The translations under genes and the position numbers were made by a program. From Pseudoalteromonas sp. 3D05 (GTDB lineage: Bacteria; Pseudomonadota; Gammaproteobacteria; Enterobacterales; Alteromonadaceae), in NCBI RefSeq assembly GCF_002723455.1, contig NZ_PDUS01000006.1, forward strand, positions 1 through 64,000: a DNA stretch of 64,000 bases, in the 5' to 3' direction. Numbering within the stretch: position 1 is the stretch's first letter; the number at the start of each line of letters is the position of its first letter. Under the pieces are notes generated by a model. It was not told the origin of the DNA, did not search any database, and was given only the letters and a program-made list of their open reading frames with translations. Below, one piece after another: positions 10,161 to 48,806 of the stretch.

Positions 10161-10268
10161 TATTAAACAGTTCTTCCTAATCAATAATCTGTGGCTAGCT
10201 ATAGGTTTGCAAAGTTTATGTTGTTTACTAAACACCCTATCCTTTACAAACCTAAAGTAAACACTATA

Positions 10269-30938: not shown

Positions 30939-31202
30939 TATACCCAAACTACCTCAAGATGCGAGTTTCAGTTGGAATTAAAAGCGATTTAGGCAAGGCA
31001 TTGATTGCAAGTAATAGTGGTTCTATTGTTAAAATCAATAACGCAGTATAAATCGCTTTTAAACCAACCCTTTGGGCGTTCCACAGAGACTTACTCCCAT
31101 CGTTGTTACTTCTTAAAAGGGACTGCCATTCTTGCAAAGTAACGCCTTGATATTAAGCCCCTGTGAAACGCTGAATTCTGCATCTTGAGGTGGTTTGGGT
31201 AT
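30939..31202. mobile_element. MITE-like element, family A, copy 1
   Basis: This 264-bp element has 24-bp terminal inverted repeats beginning TATACCCAAAC at 30939-30962 and ending at 31179-31202 with one mismatch. It encodes no convincing protein. Inside are a structured module (30978-31062), a CCC-TTT-GGG linker (31068-31076) and a second hairpin with arms GTTACTT / AAGTAAC (31105-31111, 31137-31143). An inverted copy at 48542-48806 differs at only about ten positions. It sits in the divergent mlaF-yrbG promoter region. Element type is inferred from the ends, size and repetition. Confidence 0.85.
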
Positions 31203-31310
31203 ATAACTTCTCTCTTACTAACAATTTGACCTGATTCTTTTATTTATACTTTCAAGCTGGCTTTTGATATTATTTAAGTCAATTTGATATTGGATAATTG
31301 GCGTAATGTA

Positions 31311-43024: not shown

Positions 43025-43056
43025 GTCTCTAAGCACTCAAATAATAAGTAGGTGTT

Positions 43057-43369
43057 AGGGCGTGTTGACCTTTCGTGATTAATTTTGCAGCAGTATGTTT
43101 GGTATTTAGGCAAGGCAGCGCCTATGCAGTGTGGTTGTTCCCCATAAATAGGCGATAACGCAGTATAAATGCCAAACATGCGCTGCCCAAAGGGTTCTTC
43201 CTAGGGGCGATTGACTCTTTATTACCTACATGGATGTAGGTAAGGGGCGCTAGCAGGACGCGGTAGCTTTGCTCGGTTTTTACTTAGCCCGCTAGGTTAC
43301 AAACCTCGCGCCGCGATTAAATCGCCCCTAGATTGAACAAATTTCAATCCACAAAGGTCAACACGCCCT
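43057..43369. mobile_element. MITE-like element, family B
   Basis: This 313-bp element has 17-bp perfect terminal inverted repeats AGGGCGTGTTGACCTTT (43057-43073; inverted 43353-43369). No coding frame is convincing. A first module at 43095-43179 shares the loops of family A. A CCC-AAA-GGG linker lies at 43186-43194. A second hairpin has 12-bp arms CTAGGGGCGATT / AATCGCCCCTAG (43201-43212, 43320-43331). Families A and B share no terminal sequence. Confidence 0.85.
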
Positions 43370-43395
43370 AGTTAAACCTAATACCTACTATTAGC

Positions 43396-48541: not shown

Positions 48542-48806
48542 TATACCCAAGCCACCTCAAGATGCAGAATTCAGCGTTTCACAGGGGCTTAATATCAAGG
48601 CGTTACTTTGCAGGAATGGCACTCCCTTTTAAGAAGTAACAACGATGAGAGTAAGTTCCTGTGAAGCGCCCAAAGGGTTGGTTTAAAAGCGATTTATACT
48701 GCGTTATTGATTTTAACAATAGAACCACTATTACTTGCAATCAATGCCTTGCCTATATCGCTTTTAATTCCAACTGAAACTCGCATCTTGAGGTGGTTTG
48801 GGTATA
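48542..48806. mobile_element. MITE-like element, family A, copy 2 (inverted)
   Basis: This 265-bp copy is the reverse complement of 30939-31202 with about ten differences. Terminal repeats begin TATACCCAAGCC (48542-48565) and end at 48783-48806. It contains the same structured module and second hairpin. A 65-codon frame that runs out of it is not a gene. It lies downstream of the small membrane-protein gene. Confidence 0.85.

Follow-up and report, generated by a model that had tools for sequence, protein, structure and literature searches.

A structured module with covarying stems in a widespread superfamily of MITE-like elements in Pseudoalteromonas and other bacteria

The repeats closest in kind to the elements described here appear, from a partial resemblance in sequence, to be ERIC (IRU, RU-1), although we do not file our elements as ERIC. 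ERIC is a 127-bp repeat of Enterobacterales. In the accessible part of one account (PMC2759123), it has TA ends and duplicates TA, and the mechanism of its transfer is given as not elucidated in 2007; no resolution of the mechanism of ERIC-type movement was found in the accessible text of the open-licence PMC literature. Excerpts of two further papers describe R178, which is 101 bp long and has an internal repeat of 11 bp, and R200 (320 bp), both multicopy in Pseudomonas fluorescens (PMC2718517), and the Coxiella elements QMITE1 and QMITE2, gammaproteobacterial MITEs with stable predicted folds, of which QMITE1 is reported to lack relatives in other genomes (PMC5896051). The two Coxiella elements, and R178 and R200, can be likened to ours by description; the module that we describe is present in P. 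fluorescens records. REP sequences and REPINs have a GTAG foot and a RAYT transposase as their hallmarks, and integron attC sites carry the R' and R'' boxes used by IntI; when the attC boxes are compared by eye with our module, only AAC recurs. A description of the element itself was not found in the accessible text of the open-licence PMC literature (PMC2647930, PMC10969869, PMC4853749 and PMC4538822 included), and it may be described elsewhere.

The window analysed here is a stretch of 64,000 nucleotides from Pseudoalteromonas sp. 3D05 (contig NZ_PDUS01000006.1, positions 1 to 64,000). Three elements lie in it, two of type A and one of type B. Their features are listed below, with matches to R2, a covariance model built from 45 modules outside the genus.

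30941..31201, plus strand: element A1, 261 bp, TACCC...GGGTA, from the sequence, with TA at 30939-30940 and 31202-31203.
30939..30968, plus strand: A1 left terminal repeat (5' arm of the outer stem, P0), approximate, from the consensus fold of 36 A copies.
30975..31065, plus strand: A1 module 1, the feature of the initial annotation; R2 match of 81.3 bits, E 7.6e-19.
30991..30999, plus strand: A1 left loop strand, AGGCAAGGC; CAAGGC columns at 0.91-1.00 pairwise identity in the 45 modules outside the genus.
31040..31049, plus strand: A1 right loop strand, AACGCAGTAT; A, A, C, C and G of AACRCNG at 0.91-1.00.
31068..31076, plus strand: A1 central hairpin, CCCTTTGGG, between the modules, from the sequence; a 3-bp central hairpin recurs in 56/60 module pairs.
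31079..31168, minus strand: A1 module 2, inverted; R2 match of 54.6 bits, E 7.4e-12.
31174..31203, plus strand: A1 right terminal repeat (3' arm of P0), approximate, from the consensus fold of 36 A copies.
43058..43368, plus strand: element B, 311 bp, GGGCG...CGCCC, from the sequence, with TA at 43056-43057 and 43369-43370.
43092..43182, plus strand: B module 1; R2 match of 73.0 bits, E 1.2e-16.
43108..43116, plus strand: B left loop strand, from the loop sequence scan.
43157..43166, plus strand: B right loop strand, from the sequence.
43186..43194, plus strand: B central hairpin, CCCAAAGGG, from the sequence.
43201..43331, minus strand: B second arm in the place of module 2, degenerate and longer, from sequence and fold; no R2 match.
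48544..48804, minus strand: second A element, 261 bp, with TA at 48542-48543 and 48805-48806.
48680..48770, minus strand: module 1 of the second A element; R2 match of 76.0 bits.
48577..48666, plus strand: module 2 of the second A element, inverted; R2 match of 55.1 bits.

The initial annotation had described common loops, different stems and preserved pairing at 30978-31062 (A) and 43095-43179 (B), and we find these, with the arms and inner stems as quoted there. The left loop strand occurs three times in a scan of the window (30991-30999, 43108-43116 and, on the minus strand, 48746-48754), against 0.53 occurrences expected, and none of 100 shuffles reached three or more. The right loop strand lies downstream of it at 31040-31049 in A and 43157-43166 in B, and the third loop-bearing copy is of type A, on the minus strand at 48683-48767. 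GTGGTT is present at both apices, as had been reported, within an apical loop that varies as a whole (0.54 mean pairwise identity per column). By contrast, A and B can no longer be called unrelated: the module, the central hairpin and the overall plan are common to both, which suggests two branches that have diverged within a single superfamily.

TA borders all three elements, which have the features of MITEs in being short (261-311 bp), multicopy, flanked by terminal inverted repeats and free of a transposase gene; no ORF of at least 80 aa was listed inside them, except for overlaps at the element edges. Blast searches of the host genome, with 40 candidates scored for each type, matched 58 places for A and 45 for B, pieces included, and other A copies are 78-99% identical where nearly full length. 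The initial annotation had also raised the case that the module equals a known Rfam family, and none matched at the thresholds used: at the gathering threshold tRNA alone matched in the window, and four loci searched at E <=1 gave a single match, to mir-2788, at 21.6 bits and far under its threshold of 62. A weak R2 match elsewhere in the window (10197-10259, minus strand, 14.1 bits, E 0.29) is probably due to chance.

A covariance-model search, which had been proposed as a check, found the module well beyond the window. Within the genus, model R1 has matches in 94 of the 108 genomes searched, and within the class in 74 of 369, which belong to 58 of 272 genera. For the phylum, R2 at E <=0.001 has matches in 122 of 398 genomes, in 62 of 213 genera. 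Contigs recovered by a pattern scan belong, among the matches listed, to Shewanella, Colwellia, Pseudomonas, Azotobacter, Stutzerimonas, Psychromonas, Endozoicomonas and others, and the matches listed also include single metagenome-assembled records filed as Aquificaceae and Bacteroidetes. Five plasmid records match A. One stretch matches among viral contigs, and a search of a phage collection with B gave no match, on which grounds we reject a phage origin. The E. coli genomes searched with the element of locus L085 gave no match.

The elements share a plan in which terminal repeats enclose a structured module, then a 3-bp hairpin, then a second, inverted module. Both A elements of the window have two modules; B has one clear module and a degenerate, longer arm in place of the second. 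Outside the genus, 60 inverted module pairs were found among 179 modules (sets of 45 and 134), with a median start-to-start spacing of 105, and module length is 91 in 118 of the 179. A central 3-bp hairpin is present in 56 of the 60 pairs, compared with a mean of 33.8 and a maximum of 45 after shuffling, and CCCNNNGGG is present in 39 of the 60; a 4-bp central stem is not commoner than in shuffles (8 versus 10.6 among the 60 pairs). For the 58 elements in which the outer stem could be counted, two of the 60 being too close to the locus end, at least 21 of 30 positions are paired in 53 and 11 or 12 in the other 5, with control DNA reaching at most 16. The terminal repeats are diverse, their outer 12 letters taking 48 distinct forms among these 58 elements. 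We conclude that this is a real, widespread, structured, MITE-like superfamily.

Both stems covary. From 28 loci of the genus, fetched by the exact loop pattern, 16 sequences were aligned. Two-sided changes are present at 17 of the 27 pairs, and 92.6% of cells are paired, a share that falls to at most 47.0% once the partner is slid by 1 to 3 columns. The 45 modules outside the genus, aligned by fitting to the model, which favours pairing, have two-sided changes in all 27 pairs, with 94.7% of cells paired and at most 42.7% when slid. Mean column identity in the stems is 0.34 (P1) and 0.42 (P2), compared with 0.91 to 1.00 for the letters of CAAGGC in the left loop; A, A, C, C and G of AACRCNG in the right loop also fall between 0.91 and 1.00. 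Loop constancy is partly built into every one of these sets, since the patterns used the loops and both models reward them: loop identity in the 28-locus set holds by construction because the loci were found by the exact loop pattern, and the wider set of loci was fetched by a shorter loop-and-hairpin pattern. Loop motifs were also counted where neither model nor pattern had been applied, in the second module. Of 76 pattern-matched modules, 33 have GCCTTG, which is complementary to the left loop, no more than 140 bases downstream, and 4 have it upstream; the short right-loop motif GYGTT shows no such difference (35 downstream and 36 upstream, 76 modules). The left loop is therefore backed by a check that is free of the pattern, and the right loop is not.

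If selection acted on double-stranded DNA alone, G.T and A.C mismatches in the stems would be expected to be equally common. On the module strand, G.T and A.C stand at 93:28 (P1 70:27, P2 23:1) in 80 modules anchored by the loop and hairpin pattern and counted without a model. With relatives collapsed, the ratios are 72:11 (39 representatives), 49:5 (21) and 37:4 (15); sets fitted to the model, which itself favours G.T, give 85:4 and 178:51. Because G.T exceeds A.C on this strand, its fold, as RNA or single-stranded DNA, appears to be selected. Selection on a folded single strand is what the initial annotation had proposed, and covariation and strand-biased G.T support that part of its interpretation, while the part that invoked two unrelated families falls away.

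Changes private to one copy in the host genome show no such bias. With both modules read forward in 36 A and 27 B copies, these stand at 42:44, which differs from 93:28 with a Fisher p of 5e-5; the counts treat kin sequences as independent, such that the p-values overstate independence and serve as guides. Counted by copies, the same genome gives 61:21 for module 1, 58:32 (A) and 35:33 (B) for module 2 read forward, and 52:39 (A) and 14:24 (B) for the outer stem. We read the by-copy G.T excess as changes common to subfamilies. Since single-copy changes show no bias, selection seems linked to spread rather than to host use; taken together, the counts indicate a structure that is kept in spreading lineages and decays in resident copies. 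The direction of the neighbouring gene makes little difference: in model-fitted alignments the ratios are 56:10 for sense, 91:12 for antisense, 27:6 for divergent and 21:6 for convergent surroundings, and with the bias alike in sense and antisense modules nothing points to a function in the local mRNA. Comparing wobble and A.C between lineages and single copies offers a way to tell whether selection serves use by the host or spread.

Five insertion sites were compared with relatives. One (L025) has a clean empty site in one relative and TA on both sides of the copy. A second (L026) has a clean empty site in 6/6 relatives shown, with TA fitting by length and a right border of TT, not TA. A third (L022) is empty in 3/3 relatives but 3 bases off, and the sites of L008 and L027 are not clean. 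The ends fit TA duplication, and both a target-site duplication and empty sites, as in MITEs, were found. Type-B ends match those of an 861-bp IS5-family element on an Acinetobacter lwoffii plasmid (L378), whose perfect 18-bp ends, TAGGGTCTGTTGACATTT, are one letter from the B consensus; this element differs from B in having a transposase (DDE_Tnp_1, DUF4096), and an R2 search found no module match in its locus. No autonomous element with type-A ends was found in plasmids, nor was one found with the ends of L126 or L113. Of the host-genome regions among the matches listed, which for type-A ends are a non-exhaustive set, 33 that were fetched, two places being included twice, yielded deletion derivatives, fragments and N runs in place of an autonomous partner, and 13 of these stretches held no paired ends at transposon distance when up to 4 mismatches were allowed. 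Two candidate partners were rejected: an IS630 element, proposed from the TA ends, as the host genome has no DDE_3 match, and an IS4 element for type A, as the Vibrio IS4 that adjoins a type-A end has different ends of its own. On the Vibrio tritonius plasmid pMA35 (L381), an IS4-family element seems to be inserted in a type-A element, since a type-A end adjoins one of its sides and a module match the opposite one.

Some derivatives retain one module, and others only the ends. Internal deletions of A and B form a series down to the ends alone (36-51 bp; L361, L362, L365, L367, L373, L374, L387), and two 51-bp B derivatives have a common junction. The ends may suffice for movement, or deletions may recur at that junction. 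Runs of N in the host-genome elements L358, L359, L364, L368, L369, L370, L372, L384 and L392 are perhaps assembly gaps caused by the hairpin.

We propose, with a probability of roughly 50%, that these non-autonomous MITE-like elements are moved in trans, and that the module is a putative docking motif read as a folded single strand during spread. The feature first annotated is one arm of such an element. The order of terminal repeat, module, hairpin, inverted module and terminal repeat would permit a cloverleaf fold and places one forward module near the 5' end of each strand. A trans-acting transposase, most likely of the IS5 family for type B, would move the element by its ends, with TA duplication. 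A trans-acting factor would dock on the module, reading the folded single strand (single-stranded DNA or RNA) in the course of spread, for which the module would be needed. Stems that change freely around a few fixed loop letters suggest that the element is recognised in folded, single-stranded form during its spread. Wobble on one strand, combined with neutral single-copy changes, favours recognition by a factor during spread over use by the host.

Alternatively, promoters in the ends of the element could drive a small RNA that aids its spread by binding to a protein of the host or to a transposase. Such an RNA would account both for the forward-strand bias, without dependence on neighbouring genes, and for the forward module near the 5' end of each strand, but the 48 distinct outer 12-mers among 58 elements make a shared promoter unlikely, and we consider a small RNA an improbable explanation, if the best of the alternatives. 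We have still less belief in the module as an RNA within host mRNAs, acting in stability, termination or processing, with copies kept for the benefit of the host. The predicted RNA fold is stable, and an ERIC-like repeat does lie in the E. coli rplA-rplJ gap. Nonetheless, the wobble bias is independent of gene direction, single-copy changes are neutral, some copies are absent from relatives, and the 119 elements placed relative to genes (57 between codirectional genes, 17 in divergent gaps, 13 in convergent gaps, 24 at the edge of a locus and 8 remote from genes) show no convergent excess in the raw counts. Lastly, and least credibly, the structure could be a by-product of template switching, which is known in general to correct arms in quasi-palindromes and would copy arm onto arm to give covariation without selection, with inherited loops; the element is a strong palindrome and its single-copy changes look neutral, but this does not account for the one-strand excess of G.T over A.C and leaves unexplained the CAAGGC columns (0.91-1.00, in loops favoured by the search model) against the far more variable P1 (0.34) and P2 (0.42).

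To compare the elements with ERIC, we fetched five repeats that we take to be ERIC from primer sequences and their 127-bp length. Resemblance to the right end of ERIC was found for five type-A-like ends (p between 0.0005 and 0.041, uncorrected over 22 comparisons), and not for type-B ends or the ends of L142, L126, L113 and L151. When aligned to R2, ERIC has AAGGC and ACGCAG at the loop positions, and four of five ERIC copies score 7.2-8.5 bits over the arm (E 0.23-0.52), the fifth having no match there. TA ends and TA duplication are common to ERIC, as described in the accessible part of PMC2759123, and our elements. By contrast, ERIC is 127 bp long with a single arm, whereas the window elements are 261-311 bp, with two modules in both A elements, and depart from the ERIC sequence consensus.

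A search of two E. coli ribosomal regions with R2 matched the gap before rplJ at E 0.038, with the top match in the rRNA spacer (E 0.036). The ERIC-like copy upstream of E. coli rplJ reads GGCAAGGC / AACGCCG, and with this stretch as query 4457 of 5426 E. coli genomes matched, at a median of 3 places per matching genome. We reject mimicry of the L10 leader by the module: the module loops are absent from the rplJ upstream regions of 8/8 other species, and the E. coli stretch is ERIC-like. The Rfam family RF02818 (V_AS5, named as a Vibrio antisense RNA) matches the ERIC-like repeat in the E. coli K-12 rplA-rplJ gap (L400:13243-13371) at 30.3 bits, against a threshold of 96 for the family, and V_AS5 may be an ERIC-like repeat too. 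Two plasmid-labelled records, from Shewanella baltica (pSbal03, 16.8 kb; L402) and Pseudomonas chlororaphis (16.6 kb; L403), carry rplA, rplJ and rplL.

The question of how such repeats move becomes testable in a family that is large and combines covarying stems, loops that hardly change, an end type that is known for one branch and a strand-specific signal. We suggest, tentatively and as a possibility that we would not yet favour, that a hitherto undescribed structured motif, present in pairs, rather than the ends, unites a superfamily of mobile elements with differing terminal repeats, that the folded strand would be read by a putative factor found across much of the phylum, and that ERIC may be a one-armed member.
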